DNA from: Desulfobulbaceae bacterium
GTDB lineage: Bacteria; Desulfobacterota; Desulfobulbia; Desulfobulbales; Desulfocapsaceae
Assembly: GCA_019163335.1 (NCBI GenBank)
Contig: JAFLKM010000065.1
Location: 1 to 55,616, forward strand
Reading direction: 5' to 3'
DNA: 55,616 bases
The translations under genes were made by a program, and so were the position numbers. The notes below the pieces were generated by a model. It worked only from the letters and a program-made list of their open reading frames with translations, searched no databases and was not told where the DNA came from. Positions 3,424-47,415 of the stretch are shown one piece after another. Each line of letters opens with the position of its first letter. Position 1 is the stretch's first letter.

Positions 3424-3930
3424 ATGGACACAAAAATGAGTACCACTTCTGAATATGGCTGGAGCGAGACATCCGGCATCCCCCTGCTTACCAAACTGCG
3501 CAGTGACCTGAAGGCTGCCATGTTGAGCAGAAATGAAGCAGTCAAGGGCGCCATCCGGATCATCATAAGCGAATTCCCCACCCGAATCACTCTCCCCATC
3601 ACCCTTGAAAGCGGGAAAAAAAGCAGCCGTCCCAAGCGCGACGATGAAATCACCAACGATGAGATCATCTCCGTCATCATGGGACTGTGCAAGTCTGAAA
3701 AACAGACCCTGGAATTCGCCAAGCAGACAACTTCCGATTATCTACAGGTACTAGAATCGTATCTGCCCAGCATGGCCGGCGAAGATGAAATCCTGGCCTG
3801 GACCAAAGCAAATATCGACCTCTCCCAATTCAAAACCCCCATGCAGGCGATGGGGACCATCATGAAACATTTTGGCAAAGGCGCGGACGGCAATATGGTC
3901 AAAAAAGTTCTCGGCTCGCTGGCCGGATAA
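3424..3930 (+). CDS. yqeY: GatB/YqeY domain protein
   Basis: A protein of about 168 residues with the YqeY domain, related to the tail of the GatB amidotransferase subunit and thought to bind tRNA. Family features are the opening LLTKLRSDLKAAMLSRNEAV, the central DDEITNDEIISVI and LEFAKQTTSDYLQVLESYLP, and the end MKHFGKGADGNMVKKVLGSL. The start is uncertain: ATG codons at 3376, 3424 and 3436 are in frame and none has a strong ribosome-binding site; 3424 gives the usual length plus a short tail. It lies 10 bases upstream of the histidine kinase gene and may be co-transcribed with it. Confidence 0.85.
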   Translation: MDTKMSTTSEYGWSETSGIPLLTKLRSDLKAAMLSRNEAVKGAIRIIISEFPTRITLPITLESGKKSSRPKRDDEITNDEIISVIMGLCKSEKQTLEFAKQTTSDYLQVLESYLPSMAGEDEILAWTKANIDLSQFKTPMQAMGTIMKHFGKGADGNMVKKVLGSLAG

Positions 3931-3940
3931 GCTCAATTCC

Positions 3941-5080
3941 ATGCCCTCCACCAGACAAAAAAACTCGGGCCTCAACACTGACAAGTGCCGGAGCAACTAC
4001 TGTTCTTTCGGAGATGGCAAACAGCTTTTTGATACCATCCAGGACCCGGTGCTGGTTGTCAGCCCTGAAGGCATTATCCTTGATGCAAATCCAGCCGCCA
4101 TCAAGGCTGCCCGCAAGAAAAAAAACCAGATGATCGGCAAGGGAATCTGCAAGATTATTCATGGAGGCAGCTCTCCTCATCTGAAATGTCCACTTGAATC
4201 ATTTTTACGGACCTGTACCCCACGGGTGGAGGAAACCAGGCTGCCAGGTCTTTTTGGAGAATATCTGCTCAATATCTCACCGATTAAGGAGAGTGATGGG
4301 ATTGTCAGAAATATACTGTTAATTGCCCGTGCATTGACCTCTGAGGAAGTCCGTAAAGTTGACTCCATGCGGACAGCACAACTTGCCGCAATCGGCGAAC
4401 TGGCCGCAGGTGTAGCCCATGAGGTGAATAATCCCATCACCGGCATTATTAATTTTGCCCAGATCCTTCTGGATGACAGTAAAAAAGACTCCCTCGAGGA
4501 AGAACTCCTCACCCGCATCATCACCGAGGGCGAACGAATTGCCTCCATTATCAAAAATCTGCTCTCCTTTGCCAGGGAAAGCGATCAGGAGATTGAACCC
4601 ATTGATATGGTCGATATTATTAAAACCAGTTTATCACTGGTCGAACATCAATGCAAAAATGACGGCATCCAGATCAGCACAGACTTTTTCGACGGCCCTT
4701 GCCCCATCAATGGCAATTTCCGCCAGTTGCAGCAGGTCATCCTCAATCTTTTGAGCAACAGCCGGTTTGCCTTGAATGAACGCTACCCTCTCACTTCACT
4801 AGACAAGAAGATCCTGATCTCCTGCCATCCGATCACCATTGAACATGAACCGCCCTGGATTCAGGTCTGTCTCCGTGATCACGGTACCGGGATTCCCCAG
4901 AGCATCCTTGATCGACTCTTTGATCCATTTTTTACCACAAAACCAGCTGGGCAAGGCACCGGCCTTGGCCTCAGTATCAGTTTCGGAATCATCCAGGATC
5001 ATGGCGGCTCAATCAAGGTCAACTCGATCATGCACCAATTTACTGAAATGCTTCTCAAAATTCCTGCCTCCAGCTCATAG
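3941..5080 (+). CDS. Soluble PAS-domain sensor histidine kinase
   Basis: A 379-residue cytoplasmic histidine kinase with no membrane segment. Residues about 25-130 form a PAS domain (QLFDTIQDPVLVVSPEGIIL). The dimerisation domain has the H-box AAGVAHEVNNPITG with the phosphorylated His160, and the catalytic ATPase half has N-box NLLSNSRFAL, G1 DHGTGIP and G2 GTGLGLSISFGI. The ATG at 3941 was preferred because the longer frame from 3872 would overlap yqeY by 59 bases. The stop is 5 bases before the sigma54 activator, its obvious partner. Four of the first 83 residues are cysteines, so redox sensing is possible but unproven. Part of its dimerisation domain is copied in the gene at 10333. Confidence 0.93.
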   Translation: MPSTRQKNSGLNTDKCRSNYCSFGDGKQLFDTIQDPVLVVSPEGIILDANPAAIKAARKKKNQMIGKGICKIIHGGSSPHLKCPLESFLRTCTPRVEETRLPGLFGEYLLNISPIKESDGIVRNILLIARALTSEEVRKVDSMRTAQLAAIGELAAGVAHEVNNPITGIINFAQILLDDSKKDSLEEELLTRIITEGERIASIIKNLLSFARESDQEIEPIDMVDIIKTSLSLVEHQCKNDGIQISTDFFDGPCPINGNFRQLQQVILNLLSNSRFALNERYPLTSLDKKILISCHPITIEHEPPWIQVCLRDHGTGIPQSILDRLFDPFFTTKPAGQGTGLGLSISFGIIQDHGGSIKVNSIMHQFTEMLLKIPASSS

Positions 5081-5085
5081 ATGCC

Positions 5086-6918
5086 ATGGAATACGTTGAA
5101 ACAGTCGATAAAAATGCCCGCATCCTCATTGTAGATGACGAGGCAAGCATACGCATGACCTTTGAGATGTTTCTGGTTCGAGAAGGCTATGGCCCCGTCA
5201 CTACGGTTACAAATCTTGACGAAGCCCTGCTGGCCATTGAGGCCCAGGCGTTTGACCTGATTATCAGTGATATCGTCCTGGAGGGGGGACGCGGCACAGA
5301 TCTTCTCCGCAAGATTCGAAAAAGCGGTATTGAGTGTCCAGTGGTCATGATTACCGGCTTTCCCAACTTAAACTCCGCAGCAGAAGCAGTCCGTTATGGG
5401 GCCTTTGACTATATCTCCAAACCTGTCAACAAGGAGACCCTGCTTAAATTTGTCCGTCAGGCACTCCAGCACTGGCAACTGGAAAAGGAAAAAAAACAAC
5501 TCCGCAAGGAAAATGAAAAGTATAAACGTTACTTAGAAGCCATCCTCAGTTCTGTTCGTGACGCCATTATCACCATTGATAATGACATGAATATCATCCA
5601 GATCAACAATACCGCTAAAAAATGGTTGTCCTGCGATGACAATACTGTTCCAGCAACGATAAAATCCCTCCCGGATGAAATAAGTCAAGCCTGCCTTCAG
5701 GATGCTGTCCAGGTATTGAGTAACAGGAAGGAGGTTCGGGAGCATCAGATTGAATGCCAAAAGCCCGACGGCAACATCCGGATCATAAGCTTGAATGCCT
5801 CTCCGCTCCAAGACGGCCATGATGAATTTGGCGGCGTTGTCATCGTCGCAAGAGACATCACCCTGCCGGAACCTAATGAAAACAGTTCTCTTCGGAATCA
5901 TTTTCACAGCTATGTCGGGGCAAGCCAGTTGATGCAGGATGTCTACAAATTAATTGAGAATGTAGGGAAAGTTGATACTGCCGTCCTTATTTCAGGAGAA
6001 TCTGGAACCGGCAAAGAACTTGCGGCGGAGTCCCTGCACCTTGAAAGCAGGCGAAAAGACATGCCCCTTATTAAGGTTGATTGTGCTGCTATCCCTGAAG
6101 ATCTTCTGGAAAGTGAACTTTTTGGACATAAAAAAGGCGCCTTCACCGGCGCCGATCGTGATCGGCCAGGATGGCTTTTACAGTCTGACCATGGCACTCT
6201 CTTCCTTGATGAGATTGGTGATATTTCGCCACGAACGCAACTGCGCCTCCTCCGCTTTCTTCAGGAGAAGACCTTTACCCCGGTGGGCCAGGATAGCCCG
6301 ATCAAGGTTGATGTCCGTATCATTGCCGCAACCAACGTCAATCTTATTGAAAAAGTCAGGGCTGGAAATTTTCGCGAAGATCTTTACTACCGCCTGAAGG
6401 TAGTGGAGATTAAGCTCCCCCCCCTTCGTGAGCGGCAAGGCGACATCCCCATACTGGTCTATCACTTTCTCTCTTTATTTCGGGAACAGTTGAAGAGGAA
6501 TATTCACGGGATTTCCGATCAGGCTATGAATTTGCTCTCCCTTTATTCCTGGCCCGGAAATGTCAGGGAACTCCGCCATGTAATTGAACGCGCCTGCGTC
6601 CTGTGTGAAAGCCAGACTATTTCACTGGAACACTTCCCTGAAGAAATCCGCTCACCGCAATTGCTCAAGAATACTATATCAGCACTGAGATCAGCTCCAG
6701 GCTCAGCAAATCCACCCTCCCAGCCGGCATTCGTGACAAATCCCTCTTATCCGACTTATATCAGTGAAAAAGATGAGCTTATTGACATTCTGAAACGTGC
6801 ACGAGGGAACAAGTCCAAGGCTGCCCGCATGCTCGGTGTGGATCGCAGCACCCTTTACCGGAAGATGCAGCGTCACAATATTCATGCTGATGATTTTATC
6901 GAACAAGCCACATCATAA
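5086..6918 (+). CDS. Sigma54-dependent response regulator (REC-PAS-AAA-Fis)
   Basis: A 610-residue NtrC-family enhancer-binding protein. Residues 10-125 are a receiver with phospho-acceptor Asp62 and Lys112. Residues about 150-262 form a PAS domain, an unusual insert for a plain NtrC. The AAA+ domain has Walker A GESGTGKE (304-311), the sigma54-contacting GAFTGA loop (351-356) and Walker B LFLDEIGD (372-379). The C-terminus ends in a Fis-type helix-turn-helix (NKSKAARMLGVDRSTLYRKM). It would be phosphorylated by the kinase 5 bases upstream and activate sigma54 polymerase; a near-consensus -24/-12 promoter lies about 390 bases downstream. The PAS domain allows a second input besides phosphorylation. 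Confidence 0.95.
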   Translation: MEYVETVDKNARILIVDDEASIRMTFEMFLVREGYGPVTTVTNLDEALLAIEAQAFDLIISDIVLEGGRGTDLLRKIRKSGIECPVVMITGFPNLNSAAEAVRYGAFDYISKPVNKETLLKFVRQALQHWQLEKEKKQLRKENEKYKRYLEAILSSVRDAIITIDNDMNIIQINNTAKKWLSCDDNTVPATIKSLPDEISQACLQDAVQVLSNRKEVREHQIECQKPDGNIRIISLNASPLQDGHDEFGGVVIVARDITLPEPNENSSLRNHFHSYVGASQLMQDVYKLIENVGKVDTAVLISGESGTGKELAAESLHLESRRKDMPLIKVDCAAIPEDLLESELFGHKKGAFTGADRDRPGWLLQSDHGTLFLDEIGDISPRTQLRLLRFLQEKTFTPVGQDSPIKVDVRIIAATNVNLIEKVRAGNFREDLYYRLKVVEIKLPPLRERQGDIPILVYHFLSLFREQLKRNIHGISDQAMNLLSLYSWPGNVRELRHVIERACVLCESQTISLEHFPEEIRSPQLLKNTISALRSAPGSANPPSQPAFVTNPSYPTYISEKDELIDILKRARGNKSKAARMLGVDRSTLYRKMQRHNIHADDFIEQATS

Positions 6919-7098
6919 AATTCCTGATCCTCTGATGCTCATCAAGACCGGATGAAGGAAATTCTCTTCACATCTATCGCAAAGCGCCCTTCAACATTTC
7001 ACCGCCGCAATCAAAAAAATCCCGAGAAAACTTTCTTCCCAAAAAATATCTTTCGTTTTTCACCCTATTCATATCAATTTTTCCAGGGTGGCTTGTTT

Positions 7099-7140
7099 TT
7101 CAAACTGTAGCACCATCATGCATACGCTACAGCTTTGAAA
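7099..7140. promoter_or_regulatory. Palindrome, candidate enhancer site for the sigma54 activator
   Basis: Near-perfect inverted repeat with arms TTCAAACTGTAGC and GCTACAGCTTTGAA around a 14-base centre; the inner core is TGTAGC-N14-GCTACA (7106-7131). Its centre lies about 210 bases upstream of the start predicted from the sigma54 promoter, within the range of enhancer sites. It lies about 180 bases past the activator stop and has no U-run, so a terminator is less likely. A related sequence lies at 44213. Binding is inferred. Confidence 0.5.
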
Positions 7141-7306
7141 CAATTCTGCAACATCCACACAGGATTACCACATTTTCACCACAACAATTCAATCTCCTTC
7201 GAACTTCTCTGTTCCCCTTCTGTATTAATTGTTTATTTCAAAAAAGCTGAAACATAACAGCATATTAACCTGGAGCAAAAGTATATGTATTAGTCTTCTA
7301 TACTTA

Positions 7307-7322
7307 TGGCACGCCTCATGCA
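7307..7322 (+). promoter_or_regulatory. Sigma54 (-24/-12) promoter
   Basis: The sequence TGGCACGCCTCATGCA matches the -24 element TGGCACG exactly, and carries the -12 GC doublet 12 bases after the -24 GG, the required spacing. Only the base before TGC (A for T) departs from consensus. It lies just downstream of a sigma54 activator gene and 86 bases upstream of the first small membrane protein ATG. Transcription should begin near 7332. Confidence 0.85.
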
Positions 7323-7407
7323 AAGAACAGGTCAAACACAAGATTGCAAGAATGCAAGAAAAACCAGCAGCACATTGTATCTCCAACATAACCTAAAGAG
7401 GGGCACC

Positions 7408-7629
7408 ATGAAAACAGCAACAGCAGCAACCAAGACAGATATAAAAACCGGATATCTTGCCAGCGATAAAAGCCATGCCGTTACTGAAATGCAAAAAACA
7501 AGCACTGTGATCATTGGATTTGCATCCCTTCTCTGCGGTGGCTGGGCAGTTGCCTGTATGACCGCCGGCTTGATTGCCTGTGGTGGACCAACAGGACTCA
7601 TCGTGCAATATTTTAACGCACTGAGTTGA
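7408..7629 (+). CDS. Tiny membrane protein 1 of a three-gene paralogous set
   Basis: A 73-residue protein of unrecognised family. A polar, Thr/Lys-rich N-terminus (about 28 residues) is followed by one predicted membrane helix (STVIIGFASLLCGGWAVACM) and a short tail with GGPTGLIVQYFNAL. The ATG at 7408 follows an AAGAGGGG ribosome-binding site; an upstream in-frame ATG at 7306 falls inside the sigma54 promoter and was rejected. It shares with the next two proteins a Trp inside the helix and the GGPxxL(V/I)xxxFxA tail. This copy alone has three cysteines in and just after the helix. It is first in the unit driven by the promoter at 7307. Function unknown. Confidence 0.85.
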   Translation: MKTATAATKTDIKTGYLASDKSHAVTEMQKTSTVIIGFASLLCGGWAVACMTAGLIACGGPTGLIVQYFNALS

Positions 7630-7687
7630 TCTAATATTTCGCACCGATTCCCGAGAGTAATAGATTCGTTCATGTAGGAGGTTCCCC

Positions 7688-7906
7688 ATGAAAACAGTAA
7701 ACAAGATAGATCAAAGTAAAACCAAAGCCACCTCATCAACCACCAGCAGCAGCGCCGCAATCTCCAAAATTGGAATCACAGTGGTTGGGTTTAGTGCAAC
7801 CATTATTGGTTTCTGGGCTGTAGCCAATATGATTAGCGGCACGATAAACAGTGGAGGTCCTTTAAGCCTTGTGAGCAGTCTTTTTAAAGCAATCAACGGA
7901 TATTAA
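7688..7906 (+). CDS. Tiny membrane protein 2 of a three-gene paralogous set
   Basis: A 72-residue protein with a Ser/Thr/Lys-rich N-terminus, one membrane helix (IGITVVGFSATIIGFWAVAN) and the tail GGPLSLVSSLFKAINGY. The ribosome-binding site TAGGAGG sits 6 bases before the ATG. The helix and tail align without gaps to its two neighbours, while the N-terminal 28 residues have diverged. Tandem duplication with conservation of only the helix and GGP tail suggests that the membrane part is what matters. It is not one of the named small-membrane-protein families I know. Confidence 0.85.
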   Translation: MKTVNKIDQSKTKATSSTTSSSAAISKIGITVVGFSATIIGFWAVANMISGTINSGGPLSLVSSLFKAINGY

Positions 7907-7981
7907 AGACTTTTTTAGTCGTAATCAGTTCTAGCAACGAAACAAACCCAAAAGACATCTATCACCAAGAGGATTTCAATT

Positions 7982-8200
7982 ATGGAAAACACAGCGATCA
8001 CCAAAAGCCAAACCACAGCAACCGCTCACGAATCTGCCAGAACTGACAGTGAATTACATAAAGTCGGGGCTGTTATTACCGCTTCCTTTGCAGCAATCAT
8101 TGGTGCGTGGAGTCTTATTTGTTTATTCAGCGCTTTAATCACCGATGGCGGCCCCCTCACCTTAGTCAAAAGTATGTTCTCTGCCATCACTGGAATTTAA
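7982..8200 (+). CDS. Tiny membrane protein 3 of a three-gene paralogous set
   Basis: A 72-residue paralogue of the two preceding proteins: polar N-terminus, one membrane helix (VGAVITASFAAIIGAWSLIC) and the tail GGPLTLVKSMFSAITGI. An AGAGGA ribosome-binding site precedes the ATG. A stem-loop at 8283-8321 closes the transcript after it, so these three genes probably form a complete sigma54-driven operon. Function unknown. Confidence 0.85.
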   Translation: MENTAITKSQTTATAHESARTDSELHKVGAVITASFAAIIGAWSLICLFSALITDGGPLTLVKSMFSAITGI

Positions 8201-8282
8201 TTGTTTTTCAGGAGCAATTTTTTCATAAAAAGGACCAAACAATTGCCACTTAGATTTCTGAATAATTACAAGGCCAAACACA

Positions 8283-8321
8283 TATAAAAAGTCGGTTCTC
8301 CTGTTTTGCCGGCTTTTTATA
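8283..8321 (+). terminator. Stem-loop terminator after the small-protein operon
   Basis: A 13-base stem (TATAAAAAGTCGG with CCGGCTTTTTATA, one G-U pair) with a 13-base loop; the descending arm carries five T residues. It lies 82 bases after the third small gene and separates it from the FtsH-like gene. Confidence 0.65.
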
Positions 8322-8440
8322 TGGTATATTCTTTCATTACTGATTCAAATCAGCCAAAGCCCACACACTCTTTGAATCTATTTTTAACTTAAAAGAATGT
8401 ACCTGTTATCAACCCTTGTATTCCCATAGAAATCTCTATC

Positions 8441-10336
8441 ATGGCAATTCTTGCACGGAATCTTTTCATTTTTTTTCTTTTTACAATTTTTTCAGGTGGT
8501 TGCTATATTTTATGGACCCTTGAACATCGCTTACCAGAAAGGAATTACAGTGAATTTCGCTACTGCCTCACTCACCATGATATCTCTGAAATGACCTTCA
8601 CTGGAAACAGGGTTGTCGTCAGTCATAGAGCTGCAGAAAACAGCTCTAATCCCGGCTTTACCTATGTCACCACCGTTCCCAACCCTGAAGAGCTGATCAC
8701 GGAACTCAAAGACAAAAATATCCGCATCATCTTCAATCAGGATCGTTCAGCATTTATCCTCCAGAGTCTCACCCTTCTCTATGGCGCGATCCTTGTTCTT
8801 GTCATTGTTCTTTCGCTCAGTAAAATGCGAAAAGATGAAGAAAAGAGCAGATTTGCCACAGACAAATTGATTCTTCCCAATGACGGCCACAAGATCGTGA
8901 CCTTCAAAGATGTCGCCGGCATCCCGGAAGCCATGGAAGAACTTCGAGAAATAGTCCTTTTTCTTGTAAATCCAGATCAATTCAATCAGGTTGGCGCCAC
9001 CATCCCCAAGGGAGTTTTACTGCAAGGGCCCCCAGGAACCGGGAAGACACTGCTTGCTCGTGCCATTGCCGGGGAGGCGGGCGTCCCTTTCTACAGCTTC
9101 AGCGGTTCTGATTTTGTGGAGATGTTTGTAGGAGTCGGCGCATCACGGGTGCGCGACCTGTTCAAAGAGGCAAAAAAGAACGCTCCCTGCATTGTTTTTA
9201 TTGATGAAATCGATGCGGTTGGCGGCAGTCGCAGTGGAGGCGGCTCTGCCAGTGGCAGTGATGAGCGGAGTCAGACCCTGAATGCCCTGCTGGTTGAAAT
9301 GGATGGATTCAGTTCAACTGACAATATTATTGTTTTGGCTGCCACCAACAGGCCGGATATTCTCGATCCCGCTCTGCGCAGGCCCGGACGTTTTGATCGT
9401 CAGATAAACATCCTTCCCCCTGACATGAATGGTCGCAAAAAGATCCTCCAGATCTACACGTCAAAAATTGAGCTGGCCAGTGAACTCGATATGCATGAGA
9501 TAGCCCAGATGTGCCCTGGATTTACCGGAGCCGATATAGCAAATCTGGTGAATGAAGCCGCCCTGATGGCCGCAAGGGGAGGTAAAAAGACCGTCGACCA
9601 GACAGACTTCGAACTGGCCCGTGATCGTATCCTGATGGGCGTTGAACGCAAAGGGCTGGTCATGACCGAAAAAGAAAGAAACATTCTGGCCTATCATGAA
9701 GCTGGTCATGCCATAATCGCAAAATCTCTGCCTGAAACCGACCCACTCCATAAAATCACCATCATTCCCAGAGGACGGGCTCTAGGACAAACACAGCAAC
9801 TCGCCCTGTTTGACCGACACGCCTACTCCTATACCTACCTGAAAAATAAAATCACCATCTTAATGGGTGGACGCGCGGCGGAAGAAATCGCCTTTAATCA
9901 ACGTTCCACCGGCGCCCAAGGCGATATTCTGCAGGCCACCGAGATTGCGACCAATATGATCTGCAAGTGGGGAATGAGCGAACACCTGGGACCCCAGGCC
10001 TTCATGTTTGACAACAGCGGATTTTTAGATTCGGCATCTCAACGTCTCTCCATGGCCGATGAAACCGCAAAGGCCATTGACCAGGAAATCAAAGCTATCC
10101 TGGCCAGCTCCTATGAGGAGGCAAAAACCATTCTTAATCAAAAAATTGATCTTTTAAAAAATTTGACGGAGATACTTATTCAGGTTGAAACCCTCGACAA
10201 TGAAGAATTTGAAATCATTCTCAACTGTTCAAACAAGATGAAAGCCGAAGCCAGCAGTTCAGAAGAACTTGACTGCGACATATGTCCAGCCTGTCAAGGC
10301 TGCAGCAACAGCAAAATCCGAGAATCAATATCATGA
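8441..10336 (+). CDS. FtsH-family membrane AAA+ protease with cysteine-rich tail
   Basis: A 631-residue membrane-anchored ATP-dependent zinc protease. Two membrane helices (about 5-25 and 108-127) flank a periplasmic segment. The AAA+ domain has Walker A GPPGTGKT (196-203), pore loop FVGVGASR, Walker B FIDEID (253-258) and an SRH region ([18 protein letters not shown]). The protease part has HEAGH (419-423) and Asp495 as third zinc ligand, so it should be active. Odd feature: the C-terminus carries [10 protein letters not shown], a perfect CX2CX2CX2C array (Cys612, 615, 618, 621) like a ferredoxin or zinc site, not usual in FtsH. Its place beside a sigma54 stress-type module suggests an accessory FtsH rather than the housekeeping copy. 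Its stop overlaps the next start (ATGA). Confidence 0.92.
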
Positions 10337-11247
10337 ATTCTTTAAAGAAAACCGGATACATAGCCTTCGTCGCCGTCGCCATCCTTCTCATCGTTGTTAT
10401 TTTGTTGGGATTTCGACAATATCTGCTTACCGGACAATATAACACCATTATCCGCCAGAGCGAGGAGTCCATCTTTCAATTTTCCACCATTCGAGAGCGG
10501 ATCACAGAATCTTTAATTACCCAGGATTGGGACAAGGCAGCGGCGGCCTCCCAAGAATTCAAAGACCTGAATGCGACATTGGTCCGCCTGCAGGAAAGCG
10601 ATCTTATCCCTCCGGAATATAAACTGGACATGGCAAAACAGATTGATCTCTCAGGGCTTGCCATTACCTCGAGAAATATCAGTACCACCGAAGACAAAGT
10701 TGCCCACAGCCTCAAACTGCAAAATCAGATGCGAACCCTGGCTGATTATCTTCTCCAGTTTGACCGGATCATTGTCAGCCAGATGCGCGCCAAGGTGGTT
10801 CACTTTCAGACCACCATGATTGGTTCACTGGGCATCATCATCTGTATCATTAGCTTCACCTTGATCCTGCTCTATCAGAAAGCCCTCATTCCCCTTTTTC
10901 ACCTTGCCGATCAAATCAGCGCTGAGGATCTCCATGAACAGGATTTTAAAACCAGTGGAAGCACATGCGCTGAAATCAGAAAACTGTCCGAGACCCTGGC
11001 TGAATTGTCTCAGCAGCAGCATCCAAACACAAGCAAGGGCGAATCTCCCGTAAAACAAGACCAGCAAATTGCAGCCATCATTAACGAGGGAACCAATCTG
11101 TCCAATGGCATTATCAATTATGCCCAACTTCTTTCCGACTCTTTTGAGGAAAAAAGCGAAGGCACCACAGAAGAAAAAATAATCCTTGGTAAAATTATTG
11201 CTGCAGGAGAGCGTATCGCGGCAATATTAAGAAAAATTCAATCTTGA
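10333..11247 (+). CDS. HAMP membrane protein ending in a histidine-less kinase DHp domain
   Basis: A 304-residue protein: membrane helix 9-27, a mainly helical periplasmic segment, membrane helix about 163-182, a HAMP-like linker (about 183-228), then residues 245-304 that match the dimerisation domain of the kinase at 3941. Shared stretches are GIIN(F/Y)AQ(I/L)L, a paired EE, and II-x-x-GERIA-x-I. At the phosphorylated histidine it has Asn251 (NEGTN where the kinase has HEVNN), and the protein stops before any ATPase domain. It therefore cannot be a working kinase. I infer a dimerisation partner or decoy for the upstream kinase. It starts at 10333, overlapping the FtsH stop by ATGA, so production is coupled to the protease. 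Confidence 0.8.
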   Translation: MNSLKKTGYIAFVAVAILLIVVILLGFRQYLLTGQYNTIIRQSEESIFQFSTIRERITESLITQDWDKAAAASQEFKDLNATLVRLQESDLIPPEYKLDMAKQIDLSGLAITSRNISTTEDKVAHSLKLQNQMRTLADYLLQFDRIIVSQMRAKVVHFQTTMIGSLGIIICIISFTLILLYQKALIPLFHLADQISAEDLHEQDFKTSGSTCAEIRKLSETLAELSQQQHPNTSKGESPVKQDQQIAAIINEGTNLSNGIINYAQLLSDSFEEKSEGTTEEKIILGKIIAAGERIAAILRKIQS

Positions 11248-11320: not shown

Positions 11321-12043
11321 ATGAACACAAACAAAGCGTCTACTGTAAGCTTATCAGCCCTGACCACACTTCTCTCGGCATCTTTTGTGGCAACTTTTTT
11401 TTCGGCAAACATCAGTATGGCGACAGAACCATATGATGCTGATAAGTATGGCCCGCAGGAACCCATAATCTGGGCCACTCCAAGCAAGTCAATATTCACC
11501 CATAAAACCCATACCATGGATGCCGGCCTTGCCTGTGATGACTGCCATGACGGAATCTTTCCCATGGAGCAAGGCGCCACTGAAAAAAATGGCGATTTTA
11601 CCATGAAGTCTTTTAAGGAAGGAAAATATTGCGGGACCTGCCATGATGGAAGCACTGCCTTTGAGAGCAGTACTCAGTGCGGCTCCTGCCATTTCGCTCC
11701 AGAAGCCCCCATCGTCTTTACCTCTCCGGTCAAAGCTGTAGCCTTTGATCACTCCATCCATCTACAGAAAGGCAAACTGGCATGTGAGACCTGCCATAAA
11801 GAGGTTTTTGCCATGAAAAAGGGTTCCATAGAAGAAGCGGAGCAGGCCAATCTTAGTGACGGAGACAAAAGGAAATACTTGGAACAACTCCACAATAAAT
11901 ATTGCGGCACTTGCCATGATTCTTCGCAGGCCTTTGGCTATCTGACCCGCTGTACCGTTTGCCATATCGGCGTCAAAGGATATGACGCTCAACAAAGTGG
12001 CACCCAGAAAAAAGACAAGGACACCGTCAAAACGAATCATTAA
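11321..12043 (+). CDS. Periplasmic hexaheme c7-type cytochrome (two triheme repeats)
   Basis: A 240-residue exported cytochrome with a signal peptide (about 1-34) and six CXXCH haem sites: CDDCH, CGTCH, CGSCH, CETCH, CGTCH, CTVCH. They fall into two triheme repeats of the c(7) type, each with distal histidines ahead (HKTHTMD, DHSIHLQ) and the pattern YCGTCHD-x6-7-C. Function: electron transfer in the periplasm. It starts a cytochrome-NrfD-ferredoxin set, so it is the likely electron partner of a quinone-linked membrane complex. A strong AAGGAGG site precedes the ATG. The paralogue at 45371 has the same six-haem layout. The 73-base gap from the previous gene allows read-through from the FtsH unit. 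Confidence 0.92.
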   Translation: MNTNKASTVSLSALTTLLSASFVATFFSANISMATEPYDADKYGPQEPIIWATPSKSIFTHKTHTMDAGLACDDCHDGIFPMEQGATEKNGDFTMKSFKEGKYCGTCHDGSTAFESSTQCGSCHFAPEAPIVFTSPVKAVAFDHSIHLQKGKLACETCHKEVFAMKKGSIEEAEQANLSDGDKRKYLEQLHNKYCGTCHDSSQAFGYLTRCTVCHIGVKGYDAQQSGTQKKDKDTVKTNH

Positions 12044-12116: not shown

Positions 12117-13424
12117 ATGAATAGAAGTACTGTTGATATAGCTAAAAGATGGGGCTATCACGGCATTGACGCCCTGAAAAAAGCGAGCCCCGGCTATTTT
12201 ATGATTATGGGATTCTTCGCCCTTCTTACCCTGATTGGCGCAGCCGTAGGAGTGCATGGGATGATCACCGGGTATCACCATGTGTACAATGTAAGCCGGG
12301 AAATTTCGTGGGGAATTTTGATTTCAGCCTATGTCTTTTGCGTGGTTACGTCCACCGGGCTGTGCATTATTTCCTCCATCGGCCATGTCTTTGGCGGTGA
12401 GGCCTTCATGCCCATTGCCAAACGTGCCGTCTTCATGTCCATAATCTTTATGCTTGGCGGATTCTGCATTATCTTCTTTGACATTGAGAATCCTTTCAGA
12501 ATGGCCATTTACAATGTCATCTCCCCCAATCTGAGCTCGAATATGTGGTGGATGGGAACCCTTTACGGAGCCTATCTGGTGTTTATGATCATTGAATACT
12601 ACTTTCTGCTCGAGCAAAACCACAGCCTGTCCCGACTGATGGGTTTCTTTGGGCTGGTGGTTGGTATAGCGGCCCATAGTAATCTGGGTGCTGTTTTTGG
12701 CATGCTGCATGGTCGTCCCTTTTGGTATGGCCCTTACCTGCCGATATATTTTATCTTTTCGGCAGGCATGTCCGGTGGTTGCGCCATCATGTTTGTGACA
12801 ACCCTGGCATGGAAGATCAACCCCGCCATTATGAACCTACGCATGGAAAGGGCAATGAAGGCCGTCTGTCAGGTCACTATTTTTCTCATCTCCACGATCA
12901 TCTTCTTCACCATCTGGAAGATCGTTACCGGCATGGTCTCGCACGACAAATCTTTGGTCATCATGTCCCTGGTCAATGGTGATTATTCTGTCAATTTCTG
13001 GGTTTTTGATATCTTTTTCGGCATGGTGCTGCCTCTTTTTCTTCTATTCCTATCGCGGGGGACGAACTACAACATGATCTTGTGGGCCACCGGCCTGATG
13101 ATGATCGGCATCTTTTTCATGCGCTACGATATTGTAATCCCAGGCCAGATGGTTTCTGTCTATCATGCACTCGGCGTTGAAGAGGGGCTTGACATCATCA
13201 AGTACAAGCCCTCATTCCATGAAATCATGGCCACTCTTTTTGGCCTTTCCCTTATCTGCGTTGCCTATTTAGCCGGTGAGAAAATGTTGAACGGACATCA
13301 GCTTGAAAAGCATGAGATTGTCCCCGAGGGCGGATATATCTGTCCCGGCTGCGGTGCCATCCATTTCATGCAGGAAGGTGAGTCTGAGCAGGATGCGATG
13401 AAGCGTCAGCATAACATATGGTAA
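12117..13424 (+). CDS. NrfD/PsrC-family quinone-interacting membrane subunit
   Basis: A 435-residue integral membrane protein with about ten hydrophobic helices, of the NrfD/PsrC/QrcD family that exchanges electrons with menaquinone. Typical stretches are SWGILISAYVFCVVTSTGLC early, NMWWMGTLYGAYLVFM mid-protein, and MRYDIVIPGQ near the end. The C-terminal tail (EGGYICPGCGAIHFMQ) has a CPGC pair that is absent from the paralogue at 46222 and could bind metal. It is flanked by the hexaheme cytochrome and the Tat-exported ferredoxin with which it should form one complex. The ribosome-binding site is AGGTG. Confidence 0.92.
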   Translation: MNRSTVDIAKRWGYHGIDALKKASPGYFMIMGFFALLTLIGAAVGVHGMITGYHHVYNVSREISWGILISAYVFCVVTSTGLCIISSIGHVFGGEAFMPIAKRAVFMSIIFMLGGFCIIFFDIENPFRMAIYNVISPNLSSNMWWMGTLYGAYLVFMIIEYYFLLEQNHSLSRLMGFFGLVVGIAAHSNLGAVFGMLHGRPFWYGPYLPIYFIFSAGMSGGCAIMFVTTLAWKINPAIMNLRMERAMKAVCQVTIFLISTIIFFTIWKIVTGMVSHDKSLVIMSLVNGDYSVNFWVFDIFFGMVLPLFLLFLSRGTNYNMILWATGLMMIGIFFMRYDIVIPGQMVSVYHALGVEEGLDIIKYKPSFHEIMATLFGLSLICVAYLAGEKMLNGHQLEKHEIVPEGGYICPGCGAIHFMQEGESEQDAMKRQHNIW

Positions 13425-13465: not shown

Positions 13466-14287
13466 ATGAATTTTCCAAAAATTGATTTAGACCGGTTAAA
13501 GAATGAGGGCACCTCATCCATCACGAACAAGGAACGGCGCAACTTTCTTAAACTCGGATTTGCCATTACCGGAGTCTATGCCGGCGGCAAGATCCTCTCG
13601 TTATCTTCTACCTTCGGCATTGCCCATGCCTCTGGCACTGACTTTGTCGAAAAATTTCCATACAACCCGCATTACAGTATGGTGATCCGGCAATCCCTGT
13701 GCATTGACTGTGAGAAATGCGTCGATGCCTGCAACAAGACGAATCATGTCCCCGAATACGGGTATCGGACCCGTATTCTTACCAGAAAATATCAGGGGCA
13801 ACTGGACAAGAAGGTTGAGTTCATTCCTGTCCTGTGCAATCATTGCAACGACGCTCCCTGCGTGCGTGCCTGCCCGACCAAGGCTACCTACAAGGATGCG
13901 ATTACCGGTATTGTCCGTATGGACAGCAAAAAATGTATCGGCTGCAAAACCTGTATGCTGGCCTGCCCCTATGACGCCCGCTATTTCAGCGCCGAGCGGC
14001 ATGCCGTGGATAAGTGTGATTTCTGCTGGGAGGAACGCCTGTCCAAAGGTGAAACCCAGACCGCATGTTCATCCGCCTGTCCAACCGGAGCCCGGACATT
14101 CGGCAATCTCACCGATCCTAATAATATCGTCTTTAAGCTGGTCCACCAGCTGGAAGAAAGTGTCTGGGTGTTACGCCCTGAAGATGGGACCAAGCCCAAT
14201 ATCTTCTATATGAAGGGGAATATGTTGTCCGTGGACAACATATTGAAAGGACAGAAATTTATCTATTCAGGGCCAAGCGGAAGCTGA
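13466..14287 (+). CDS. Tat-exported ferredoxin subunit with four [4Fe-4S] sites (DsrO/NrfC-like)
   Basis: A 273-residue iron-sulfur protein. A twin-arginine signal (KERRNFLKLGF, residues about 22-32) followed by a hydrophobic stretch directs folded export to the periplasm. Four cysteine groups follow, built on CIDCEKCVDAC, CNHCNDAPCVRACP, CIGCKTCMLACP, then CDFC and a downstream CSSACP. This is the NrfC/PsrB/DsrO/QrcC arrangement for four cubane clusters. ATG 13466 follows an AAAGGA site; an earlier in-frame ATG at 13418 overlaps the NrfD gene and would hide the signal. It is last of the set and is followed by a strong terminator. Likely role: wire between the NrfD subunit and the cytochrome. 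Confidence 0.92.
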   Translation: MNFPKIDLDRLKNEGTSSITNKERRNFLKLGFAITGVYAGGKILSLSSTFGIAHASGTDFVEKFPYNPHYSMVIRQSLCIDCEKCVDACNKTNHVPEYGYRTRILTRKYQGQLDKKVEFIPVLCNHCNDAPCVRACPTKATYKDAITGIVRMDSKKCIGCKTCMLACPYDARYFSAERHAVDKCDFCWEERLSKGETQTACSSACPTGARTFGNLTDPNNIVFKLVHQLEESVWVLRPEDGTKPNIFYMKGNMLSVDNILKGQKFIYSGPSGS

Positions 14288-44480: not shown

Positions 44481-45248
44481 ATGAATATCGAGGAATTGGA
44501 AAAAGAAAAAAATGAAGGCATTGACAGCTTGCCTTTACAGGAACGGCGTAAATTCCTTAAAATGGGATTATCCGTTACTGGTGTTTTTCTGGGAGGGTCT
44601 GTCCTTTCATTGACGTCAATATCACATGCCAGTAATCAAAAAAATGCAGACATGGATATTCCAGCGGAAGGTCAATACCCCTACCCCAAACATTACGGCA
44701 TGATCATGCGGCAAAATCGCTGTGTCGGATGTGAATTATGCGTTGAGGCATGCAAACAGACAAATCATGTGCCAAATGATCATGGCGCTTGGAGAACTGC
44801 CATCCAAGAAAAAATTACGACTGAAAACGGCTCTGAAAAAAGAGAATTCAGACCGGTACTTTGCAACCAGTGCAATCGCCCACCCTGTGTCCGGGTCTGC
44901 CCTACAAAAGCAACCTACAAGGATCCCGAGACTGGGATCGTCGTCATGGATTACAAAAAATGTATTGGCTGCAAGACTTGCATGGCTGCCTGCCCCTATA
45001 ATGCCCGTTATTTTAATGAAGAAAAATACGCCATTGATAAATGTAATTTCTGTATAGATACCCGGCTTGCCGAAGGTAAAAAAGAGACCGCCTGCGCAGC
45101 AGCCTGTCCAGCCAGGGTCAGAATTTTTGGTGACCTGAAAGACAAATCCACGGAGATTTATCGTTTACTCCACACACCTGACTCAAAAATCTGGGTTTTA
45201 CGTCCCGATACAGGGGCCCTGCCCAATGTGTTTTATATAAATGCCTGA
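44481..45248 (+). CDS. Tat-exported ferredoxin subunit of the second redox set
   Basis: A 255-residue paralogue of the protein at 13466. The twin-arginine signal is QERRKFLKMGLSV and the cysteine groups are CVGCELCVEAC, CNQCNRPPCVRVCP, CIGCKTCMAACP, then CNFC and a CAAACP, for four [4Fe-4S] clusters. Unlike the first set, it comes first, before the cytochrome and NrfD genes. AAGGAGG lies just upstream of the ATG. A 122-base gap to the cytochrome holds no gene. Confidence 0.92.
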   Translation: MNIEELEKEKNEGIDSLPLQERRKFLKMGLSVTGVFLGGSVLSLTSISHASNQKNADMDIPAEGQYPYPKHYGMIMRQNRCVGCELCVEACKQTNHVPNDHGAWRTAIQEKITTENGSEKREFRPVLCNQCNRPPCVRVCPTKATYKDPETGIVVMDYKKCIGCKTCMAACPYNARYFNEEKYAIDKCNFCIDTRLAEGKKETACAAACPARVRIFGDLKDKSTEIYRLLHTPDSKIWVLRPDTGALPNVFYINA

Positions 45249-45370
45249 TGCAGGAAGTATCAAATATCAAAATTATTGGAGTGGAACAAGTCGGCTAAAG
45301 ATATGTACAAACCTACAGACGCCAGGCTTGGCTGTTCCCCGATTATTCGACGCTTTGCAGGAGAAGAAAA

Positions 45371-46138
45371 ATGATTCAACACAACATAAAATCAATTGGA
45401 GCCATGCTGCTAGCAGTATCTTTTTTGCTTGCCCCTCCCCTTGCCTCCAAGTCATTTGCCGCAGAAACTTCTGGCGCTGATGCCTCCACGATCAAAGGTA
45501 ATACTTATAAATTTCTTTACGATGAACAGACAAAGAAAAACTATGGCCCCAAGGCGGATATTGTCTGGTCCAAACCAACTGAAGTAACGTTCAGTCATAA
45601 AATACACACAATGGATGCAGGCCTCACTTGTACATCTTGCCACAAAGAAATTTTTAGCATGAAGGCAGGAGCAGTCTTAAATAGTGGAAAGATGACCATG
45701 GCAGCCATGGCGGAAGGTAAATATTGCGGTACTTGCCATGATGGAAGCACAGCATTTGCCACGAATACACAATGCGCCTCATGCCACACTAAGGTGAACG
45801 AATTGCTTCCCCCCGATCCGATCGTCTGGACAAAACCAGTCAAGGCAGTGCTTTTTTACCATAAGCCCCATACAGAAGATTACGGCCTGGCATGTGATGA
45901 CTGTCACGACAGTCTTTTTTCCATGGAGAAAGGCACGGCTGAAAAAGCCGACGATTTTACCATGAAGTCACTTTATGAGGGAAAATACTGTGGTAAATGT
46001 CATGACGGGTCCATGGCCTTTGCCTCCGATACCCGTTGCAACACCTGTCACATAGGGGTGAAGGGATATAATCGAATTTCTGGAAATAATAATTCTCACG
46101 ACACAAAAAACCAGAAAGATCCCCATGCTGGCAATTAA
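45371..46138 (+). CDS. Periplasmic hexaheme c7-type cytochrome of the second redox set
   Basis: A 255-residue exported cytochrome with a signal peptide (about 1-30) and six haem sites: CTSCH, CGTCH, CASCH, CDDCH, CGKCH, CNTCH. Two triheme repeats are evident, and the ending TCHIGVKGYN parallels VCHIGVKGYD in the cytochrome at 11321, so the two are true paralogues. GGAG precedes the ATG. Role: electron carrier or complex subunit with the adjacent NrfD and ferredoxin. Confidence 0.92.
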   Translation: MIQHNIKSIGAMLLAVSFLLAPPLASKSFAAETSGADASTIKGNTYKFLYDEQTKKNYGPKADIVWSKPTEVTFSHKIHTMDAGLTCTSCHKEIFSMKAGAVLNSGKMTMAAMAEGKYCGTCHDGSTAFATNTQCASCHTKVNELLPPDPIVWTKPVKAVLFYHKPHTEDYGLACDDCHDSLFSMEKGTAEKADDFTMKSLYEGKYCGKCHDGSMAFASDTRCNTCHIGVKGYNRISGNNNSHDTKNQKDPHAGN

Positions 46139-46221
46139 ACCTGAACACAAACATCTCAAGGGCAGAATAGCTTTTAATCCACTAGCCCTCGTTAAAAAAA
46201 AACTAATATCCGGAGTAAAAA

Positions 46222-47415
46222 ATGACAAACAACTCATTATCAGCCATTTTTGCCGAGACAGCAGACCCACGTCTGGCCACACCCGGCATGAACAGGGCCA
46301 CTATTTTCTTTCTGATCGTAACCATAGTGGGACTCAGTTGCGGTGTCCTTGCCTTTATTTTTGGCCATCATACCATCTATAATAACACCCGTGAAATGCC
46401 ATGGGGTATGCTTATTTCCACCTATGCCTTCTGGGCGATCACCTCCACTGGTCTCTGCATGTATGCCGCCATGAGCCATGTTTTTGGTGGTACAAGAATG
46501 GGAATGGTCAGCAACCGCATGGTTTGGATGTCTATCATTTGTATCATGGGTGCCTTTGCCACCATCGGCGTGGAGATAGCCAGCCCGCACCGAATGCTGC
46601 TCTACAATATCATCTCCCCTAACCCCCTGTCTAATATCTGGTGGATGGGTACACTGTACGGATTGGCTGTGGGTTGTATGATTATTGAATTCGCGGGAAT
46701 TGTAACTGGACTAGGAAAACTGGCGCTGGTCATGGGAGTTTTTGGCGCCCTGGCCGAGGTTTTAGCAAACAGTTGCCTGGGTGGCGTTTTTGCAACCCTT
46801 CCGGCCAGACCTTATTGGTACGGAGCACAATTACCCATCTACTTTCTCACCTCAGCTTTTCTTTGTGGAGCGGCAGCAGCAGTTCTTTTTAATTATCTTG
46901 CCTACAAAATTCGGGATGAAAAGATGTCTACCTCTGTCCATCTTGCGGTGAAAAGCGCCGGCAAGGCCATGACTCTGGTCCTCATTCTTTATACCGTTGC
47001 CACCTTTTGGCGTCTGGTCAGTTTTTATGTAGGTGGACCTGAACTGGGAAGAACGGCAGCAGATGCTCTTATCAGTGGCCCTCTCGCCATCAACTTCTGG
47101 GTTCTAGAAGTTTGCATTGGCCTTATCATCCCTATTATACTGATTATCTTGTCCCGTCTTGAAAATATGAGCATGCTCGCTTTTGCCGGTTTCCTTATTC
47201 TTGTTGGTCAGTTTGTGGCCCGTTATGACCTAGTTGTCGCAGGTCAAAATGTTCCCCAGAATTTAGGATGGGACAACCTTCCAACCCATTTTAGCTACGT
47301 CCCCTCCTTCTTTGAATTCGGGGTTATAGCCGGAAGTATTGGCGTCGTAGCTTTTGGTTTTTTAATGGGAGAACGAGTATTTGGTAAGACATTTACACAG
47401 AAAGAACATCATTGA
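46222..47415 (+). CDS. NrfD-family quinone-interacting subunit of the second redox set
   Basis: A 397-residue, about ten-helix membrane protein paralogous to the one at 12117. Matching stretches include PWGMLISTYAFWAITSTGLC, NIWWMGTLYGLAVGCM and ARYDLVVAGQNVP. It lacks the CPGC tail of the first copy. CGGAG precedes the ATG. A strong hairpin terminator follows. With the two preceding genes it should form a menaquinone/periplasm electron-transfer complex. Confidence 0.92.
   Translation: MTNNSLSAIFAETADPRLATPGMNRATIFFLIVTIVGLSCGVLAFIFGHHTIYNNTREMPWGMLISTYAFWAITSTGLCMYAAMSHVFGGTRMGMVSNRMVWMSIICIMGAFATIGVEIASPHRMLLYNIISPNPLSNIWWMGTLYGLAVGCMIIEFAGIVTGLGKLALVMGVFGALAEVLANSCLGGVFATLPARPYWYGAQLPIYFLTSAFLCGAAAAVLFNYLAYKIRDEKMSTSVHLAVKSAGKAMTLVLILYTVATFWRLVSFYVGGPELGRTAADALISGPLAINFWVLEVCIGLIIPIILIILSRLENMSMLAFAGFLILVGQFVARYDLVVAGQNVPQNLGWDNLPTHFSYVPSFFEFGVIAGSIGVVAFGFLMGERVFGKTFTQKEHH

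Follow-up and report, generated by a model that had tools for sequence, protein, structure and literature searches.

A putative sigma54-controlled cassette of tiny one-helix membrane proteins that appears mostly co-inherited with its own FtsH in sulfur-cycling bacteria

What do three tiny tandem membrane proteins do when their genes lie between the gene of a sigma54 activator and that of an FtsH protease? The question is raised by a stretch of 55,616 nucleotides from a Desulfobulbaceae bacterium (GenBank assembly GCA_019163335.1, contig JAFLKM010000065.1), which we call the window and to whose numbering all plain coordinates refer. An earlier note on this DNA had described a sigma54-type operon of three small paralogues, and its overall reading is partly supported by the present analysis; the strongest clues to function, which that note did not contain, are a recurring cassette, an enhancer-like repeat, the co-inheritance of an FtsH clade, a pseudo-kinase and a link to redox genes. 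It appears that in many sulfur-cycling bacteria a dedicated switch induces tiny membrane proteins that are mostly co-inherited with their own FtsH and are often encoded beside redox genes, and this suggests a novel mode of respiratory-membrane management.

Genes A (7408-7629), B (7688-7906) and C (7982-8200) are three intact tandem open reading frames of 73, 72 and 72 codons on the forward strand, as had been read from the window at the outset, and each is preceded by a purine-rich stretch that looks, by eye, like a ribosome-binding site. A 107-residue frame that opens at 7306 is an upstream extension of gene A across the promoter and nothing more. All three products consist of a polar N-terminal tail, a single hydrophobic helix with a tryptophan and a GGPxxL(V/I)xxxFxA tail. 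In an alignment of 30 members (gene B numbering), Met1, Trp43, Gly57 and Ala68 are invariant and Gly41, Gly56, Pro58 and Gly71 nearly so; across 118 members, the N-tail is rich in T, S, K and A and has a mean length of 30 residues. Because the N-tail is richer in K/R than the C-tail (3.9 versus 0.9 per tail in the same 118 proteins), an N-in/C-out orientation is likely; net charge shows no difference between the N and C ends. The AlphaFold model of a small protein, a long helix that breaks at GGP and continues as a short second helix, is poor (pLDDT 67, pTM 0.31), and the predicted fold is of little help. The ratio dN/dS is 0.16 for gene A (window against two relatives), 0.17 to 0.23 for gene C against the same two and 0.08 to 0.21 for gene C against five further relatives, where dS is partly near saturation; these values mark A and C as constrained coding genes. 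The comparison for gene B, thrown out of register by an indel, was discarded. The assignment of the three genes thus draws on reading frame, alignment and tree throughout, on dN/dS for A and C and on the predicted structure for C. The source genome holds five small-gene copies, the three in the window and two on another contig.

No convincing match to the small proteins was found in Pfam, NCBIfam, PHROGs, PADLOC or PDB, and those of the window match no NCBIfam model at all, which bears out the initial impression that no known family fits. Pfam matches to Sublancin (0.1), E1-E2_ATPase (0.053) and a geminivirus movement-protein model (0.023) were rejected as chance, as were PHROG matches (E down to 0.0045, at most four members) and two PDB matches (E 0.38 and 2.5). 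A mobile or phage origin was likewise set aside: the one member tried against plasmids gave no match, 14 pattern matches in viral contigs yielded none that was confirmed, and there was neither a convincing phage-family match (PHROGs) nor a defence match (PADLOC). The small proteins appear to form a new family of one-helix membrane proteins. The family and the module of which it is part are real, conserved and, as far as the literature was searched, undescribed.

The predicted -24/-12 promoter, TGGCACGCCTCATGCA, occupies 7307-7322 on the forward strand, about 100 bp ahead of the start of gene A (TGGCACG-CCTC-ATGCA, GG-to-GC spacing 12). It scores 16.6 of 17.6 as a TGGCAC-N5-TTGC-like element of fixed spacing, with untrained, hand-set weights that follow the known consensus. 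The strict pattern TGGCAYGNNNNWTGCW occurs five times in the 3.2-Mb genome, one of them this site, versus once for a reversed-pattern control; another of the five (L158, G000:C28:37792-37807) stands just before the gene of a product that looks secreted by eye. Upstream of the first small gene, a score of at least 14 recurs in 42 of 59 clusters (63 before short or identical upstreams were dropped), compared with 24 of 2,950 shuffles and with 11 of 671 control upstreams, taken in the same loci from other ORFs with 200 or more residues, and the sites in relatives mostly fall 60 to 110 bp before the start codon. The sigma54-type operon of the earlier note is upheld by this recurrence. Among the 17 clusters that fall short of this score are the distant solitary copies L090, L092-L095 and L097. 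A consensus scan found no sigma70 promoter in 6900-8500. Where the ABC array is doubled, as in L076 and L079, both arrays come with a promoter and a hairpin of their own. Strong -24/-12 sites are also present at the solitary loci L103, L106 and L107, where a small gene is paired with a P103 protein (see below), and these suggest a regulon rather than a single operon.

An inverted repeat, CTGTAGC-N14-GCTACAG at 7105-7132, lies about 189 bp upstream of the -24 element, where an enhancer-binding protein would bind, and is the probable binding site (UAS) of the activator. Repeats of the form GTnGC-N8-18-GCnAC occur 90 to 260 bp upstream in 16 of 47 clusters, versus 15 of 2,520 random pieces; since only these 16 carry the exact repeat, other loci may use other sites. 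On the far side of gene C, an intrinsic-terminator-like hairpin at 8281-8323 on the forward strand (16 pairs, -20.7 kcal/mol, z -4.85, equalled by none of 200 shuffles) closes the unit, as had been proposed. It is missing from our terminator scan, which allows loops of up to 8 nt, this loop having 11. A hairpin with a T-run follows the small genes in 41 of 63 clusters by a lax test that had no control. Because the hairpin stands ahead of ftsH, the small proteins and FtsH need not be equally abundant.

The neighbouring genes all lie on the forward strand. Upstream are a PAS-HisKA-HATPase histidine kinase (3872-5080; Pfam HisKA 1e-15, HATPase_c 1.9e-17, DHp His-Glu read by eye), whose real start may lie further inside the ORF, and the sigma54 activator (5086-6918), a response regulator with receiver, PAS, AAA+ and Fis-type HTH domains (Pfam Sigma54_activat 6.6e-67, Response_reg 6.5e-26, HTH_8 8.1e-14) and a GAFTGA motif read by eye. 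Downstream of the hairpin come an FtsH paralogue (8441-10336), a membrane sensor-like protein with a degenerate DHp (10333-11247; analyses used 10336 onward), a cytochrome c7-type multiheme cytochrome (11321-12043; Cytochrome_C7 3.5e-27, nanowire_3heme 111.2 bits with a cut-off of 40), an NrfD-type integral membrane (quinone) subunit (12117-13424; Pfam NrfD 2.6e-26) and a 4Fe-4S ferredoxin-type electron-transfer subunit (13466-14287; Fer4_11 3.5e-23, with NrfC and DsrO as best NCBIfam models, both below cut-off). A second set of FeS, cytochrome c7 and NrfD genes is found at 44481-47412 of the window, with no small gene or FtsH recognised alongside.

The family is widespread. The gene C protein as query gave matches in 66 of 97 relatives, and a 30-row profile matched 168 of 257 genomes when run on the order, spread over 51 of 69 genera, and 20 of 395 genomes when run on a sample of the phylum, 9 of them from the order and 11 from elsewhere in the phylum. 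Named loci with small genes come from Desulfocapsa, Desulfopila, Candidatus Desulfobia and other Desulfobulbaceae/Desulfocapsaceae (18 loci). The cassette itself was surveyed in 54 loci and six more, which are best or chosen matches and so a non-random set, with some genomes under two locus names; neighbours were counted in 60 of 63 clusters, those with identical first proteins having been dropped. Two arrangements recur. In type I, to which the window belongs, a kinase and a sigma54 regulator precede one to six small genes, which are followed by FtsH, the pseudo-kinase and redox genes, the last being either cytochrome c7, NrfD and FeS or sets that include NapC/NrfH-like multihemes. Type II consists of a kinase, often joined by a PAS protein, and then sigma54 regulator, FtsH, cytochrome, HmcB-like FeS protein, HmcC-like NrfD protein and sensor, to which several loci add a small gene of 62-70 residues and then a two-helix protein of about 100 residues (P99/P103). 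The regulator is directly upstream of the small genes in 24 of 54 clusters with enough sequence, and FtsH directly downstream in 33 of 58, so that the profile search places homologues beside the very neighbours, sigma54 activators and FtsH paralogues, that had been pointed out. An FtsH-like protein lies within 9 kb in 43 of 60 clusters, in one of which (L101) it is a divergent 816-residue M41 protein on the other strand; the remaining 17 include contig ends, solitary loci with a small gene and P103, and distant solitary copies.

Several loci depart from these plans. At L101:9384-9830, a pair of small genes that has a -24/-12 site is convergent to the divergent M41 (FtsH-like) protein, which takes the place of the usual FtsH, and at L093:9846-10061 and L094:9148-9363 solitary distant relatives, which have no sigma54 site, sit near recA and MerR-like genes (by eye). 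In four Hmc-like clusters an IS1595-transposase-like protein, perhaps a domesticated transposase, is encoded directly upstream of ftsH (L006:12152-13309, L109:16027-16941, L159:7281-8204, L160:8308-9213); the four are 51-67% identical, Pfam having been run on three. The P99/P103 protein (L006:6305-6604, L007:4089-4400 and relatives) has two helices and no family match; at several type II loci it is encoded after the small gene, and P103 was found in 7 of 60 clusters. Its YTHIKGxEY motif is invariant in the eight aligned sequences. A profile comparison of P103 with the small proteins gave a probability of only 62, although the small-protein HMM also matches P103-like proteins in L091 and L100; the N-terminal half of P99/P103 may be related to the small proteins.

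In the sensor-like protein at 10333-11247, Asn (as Asn-Glu) replaces the expected phospho-His in 12 of 12 relatives, the position having been matched by eye to the kinase of the window, and the DHp-like helical pair keeps the neighbouring Glu, Asn, Gly-Ile and Gln-Leu-Leu residues. Pfam gives no HATPase or HisKA match in this protein; its model (mean pLDDT 77) bears a weak likeness to a NarQ sensor fragment (E 0.014, TM 0.52). Longer relatives in some type II loci (L091:3862-5781, L109:9770-11224) keep the phospho-His, and the loss of kinase function may therefore be secondary in type I clusters. We infer that the protein is a membrane sensor that pairs with the kinase or tunes it.

The FtsH paralogue scores 710.9 bits with TIGR01241 (cut-off 600), has AAA and M41 domains (Peptidase_M41 4.2e-61) and shows HEAGH and GPPGTGKT. 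In a tree of 59 FtsH rows, all 36 rows labelled as linked to a small gene fall in one clade of 41 with a support of 100/100, and 18 rows lie outside; of the five other clade rows, L159 and L163 have small genes in the cluster, and L160-L162 are Hmc-like clusters without them. This tree left out FtsH proteins that had fewer than 450 aligned residues or were too distant (four added later all fall outside the clade), and the divergent M41 protein of L101 is outside the scope of the FtsH trees. Sixteen genomes of the order in which no small gene was found carry 20 FtsH in total (12 genomes with one, 4 with two), of which none is in the clade. As the clade of the window's FtsH stands apart from these 20 and from L129 (G000:C5), it is unlikely that this protein is the housekeeping FtsH of the genome.

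The FtsH comparison was then widened by a search of 18 more genome entries (one, G218, a repeat), and 78 FtsH were added. In the resulting tree of 157 rows, the clade comprises 65 rows (FastTree support 1.0), none of them from the 16 negative genomes; for 54 of the 65, the sequence fetched includes a small gene, whereas 11 have none in the stretch seen. Among the new rows, a small gene accompanies 16 of the 24 inside the clade and none of the 54 outside, many of the outside stretches being only about 3 kb long. Among longer stretches, part of which were hand-picked as likely clade members, the proportions are 16 of 23 inside versus 0 of 16 outside. Those not hand-picked, that is, the remaining M41 matches without a locus once those already covered by another locus and one split match (G531) are set aside, give 4 of 7 versus 0 of 13; M41 matches without a fetched stretch entered the 157-row tree only in part. 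Counted by genome, 26 of 31 examined genomes with small genes have a clade FtsH, and none of the 16 that lack small genes does. The other five (G124, G218, G221, G272 and G295) lie outside the order and have only weak, distant small genes and no clade FtsH. This tally and its exceptions argue for close co-inheritance inside the order and among sigma54-linked relatives, with distant solitary members living without clade FtsH. The widened comparison thus strengthens the link to the small genes and also shows exceptions to it, and it leaves the odds of the explanations weighed below unchanged.

The paralogues within an array are also kept in order. When 71 small proteins encoded in arrays of more than one gene are placed in a tree, the labels first, middle and last require 9 changes, versus a mean of 33.3 when shuffled, and none of 200 label shuffles was as low; the alignment is short, and near-copies favour clustering of labels. 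Gene A of the window groups with seven other first genes, the group of gene B consists of middle genes in 7 of 10 rows, and that of gene C consists of last genes in 17 of 21. Such clustering by position argues that the paralogues are kept distinct, as a heteromer predicts, unlike mere gene dosage.

How might these parts work together? The reading that we prefer, at a probability of about 0.42, is that of a two-component, sigma54-dependent membrane-adaptation cassette, whose one-helix proteins would serve as partner or protective proteins and be cleared by FtsH, after the logic of the Hlips and FtsH4 but with unrelated proteins. We prefer it because, according to the available text of one study (PMC11287208), the one-helix Hlips of cyanobacteria are removed after stress by FtsH4, a protease that also influences photosystem biogenesis. 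Starting from what sequence comparison supports, namely a cassette, a new family, positional paralogues and a co-inherited FtsH, we infer a signal, a topology, a partnership with redox complexes and a removal by FtsH as follows. The kinase pair would sense the state of the membrane or its redox state, and the phosphorylated regulator would then drive a burst of small proteins. These would enter the membrane N-in/C-out, their tail beyond the GGP break being amphipathic, and would act as bound partners or protective subunits of inner-membrane redox complexes that are being assembled or repaired. Later, the linked FtsH would clear the small proteins along with damaged partners, starting at the loose cytoplasmic N-tail. 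FtsH requires some 20 residues of loose tail on the cytoplasmic side of its substrates, and the N-tails would offer this. Against the preferred reading count the 17 clusters with no FtsH within 9 kb, the five small-gene genomes that lack clade FtsH, the 11 clade FtsH with no small gene in the stretch seen, the divergent M41 protein of L101, the 25 clusters with no recognised redox gene within 10 kb and the variety of the redox genes, as do the poor model of the small protein, the equal net charge of its two ends and the hairpin ahead of ftsH. A bolder version, itself somewhat doubtful, is that the cassette is an anaerobic and independently evolved counterpart of the Hlip/FtsH4 pair, in which a kinase-dead sensor tunes the switch and a heteromeric A/B/C array floods the membrane, where it protects or chaperones quinone-linked cytochrome complexes before being destroyed by a co-evolved FtsH.

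Alternatively, the small proteins may not be substrates of the linked FtsH but modulate it, as inhibitors or adaptors, so that the burst would redirect or block the protease. This is the main rival; we hold it to be rather unlikely, and it fits nearly as well as the Hlip-like cycle. Lambda CIII and SpoVM modulate housekeeping FtsH. Moreover, small genes plus FtsH form the most reduced core that was seen (L084 and L088 keep both, with no recognised regulator alongside), the FtsH clade tracks the small genes, and the intergenic hairpin would leave the small proteins in excess over FtsH. However, an inhibitor seldom needs two or three diverged paralogues in a kept order, and some small genes lie far from any recognised FtsH. 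Nor does the family search, with no convincing match, speak for this reading, the comparison with CIII and SpoVM running through family models only.

It is distinctly unlikely that the small proteins are permanent accessory subunits of the adjacent NrfD/cytochrome complexes. Tiny respiratory subunits such as HmcD and CydX are known, redox genes lie within 10 kb in 35 of 60 clusters, and the redox genes of type II are HmcB/HmcC-like, a small gene and P103 sharing the cluster in several loci. However, the redox partners differ in type from cluster to cluster (cytochrome c7 with NrfD and FeS, NapC/NrfH-like multihemes, Hmc-like sets), and none was recognised in the other 25 clusters, as at L084, where FtsH is present, and at the solitary loci L103, L106 and L107. 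Conversely, the three Hmc-like FtsH clusters L160-L162 have no small genes.

An improbable last reading is a Psp-like envelope-stress operon, or one for pore-forming or toxic peptides, acting on the membrane itself. The combination of a sigma54 promoter, small membrane proteins and a tie to FtsH is reminiscent of the phage-shock operon, PspF models do give scores for the activator (254.9 of 443.55 and 213.7 of 529 bits, both well short of the cut-offs) and tandem small proteins with amphipathic tails could oligomerise, but the small proteins match none of PspA, PspB and PspC, the activator has a receiver domain, unlike PspF, and the searches of phage families, defence systems and, for one member, plasmids gave no convincing match. 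The earlier note had entertained a pore, lipid stress, a signalling peptide or complex subunits; nothing in the analysis supports a pore or a secreted signal. This reading and that of accessory subunits fit less well than either the Hlip-like cycle or modulation of FtsH.

FtsH is a general housekeeping protease in most bacteria; a clade of it that is confined, in the genomes examined, to carriers of the small proteins would offer a natural protease-partner pair that is open to genetics. Desulfocapsa includes sulfur disproportionators, and the pair would mark how Desulfobulbales-type bacteria and their relatives, Desulfocapsa among them, adjust poorly understood quinone/cytochrome complexes. 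As the family is so common in the order, a functional answer would annotate many genomes.

Among the matches listed in our literature search, which covered little of the subscription literature, no title or abstract gave an account of a small-protein/FtsH cassette. The available text on the D. sulfexigens genome describes polysulfide-reductase operons with cytochrome and ferredoxin and does not mention 'ftsH' or 'sigma' (PMC3739170), and FtsH is likewise unmentioned in the main text of a D. dissulfuricans proteome paper (PMC9751629), in that of a 2026 disproportionation survey (PMC12998232) and in the available text of a further paper (PMC12316311). In Desulfovibrio vulgaris, the enhancer-binding protein DVU3142 has been assigned to the sigma54-regulated Ohc electron-transport complex, a membrane electron-transfer complex under an assigned enhancer-binding protein and in this regard like the cassette; unlike the cassette, no small-protein array is mentioned in the text available, and FtsH is absent from its main text (PMC4641369).

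The likeness to Hmc lies in type II, which encodes HmcB-like (396.8 of 420 bits) and HmcC-like (351 of 550 bits) subunits, both below the NCBIfam cut-offs. Hmc is a transmembrane redox complex found in sulfate reducers, and HmcD is a tiny membrane subunit of it; a search with the HmcE model (NF045716) gave no match in the source genome. The phage-shock (Psp) operon, like the cassette, has a sigma54 promoter, an activator gene upstream and small inner-membrane proteins. However, the activator of the cassette is a response regulator, and a linked FtsH paralogue and redox genes are present; no PspA, PspB or PspC match is among the Pfam and NCBIfam matches listed for seven neighbouring genes. As regards the Hlips, their removal by FtsH4 is known, whereas what the cassette displays is co-inheritance and linkage. 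The cassette also differs from them in having no family match and no chlorophyll context, in its sigma54-type control and in genes that are often linked to ftsH. What the two appear to share, going by the available text on FtsH4, are stress-induced one-helix proteins, two-component control, a tie to the biogenesis of redox complexes and a specialised FtsH paralogue (PMC11287208).
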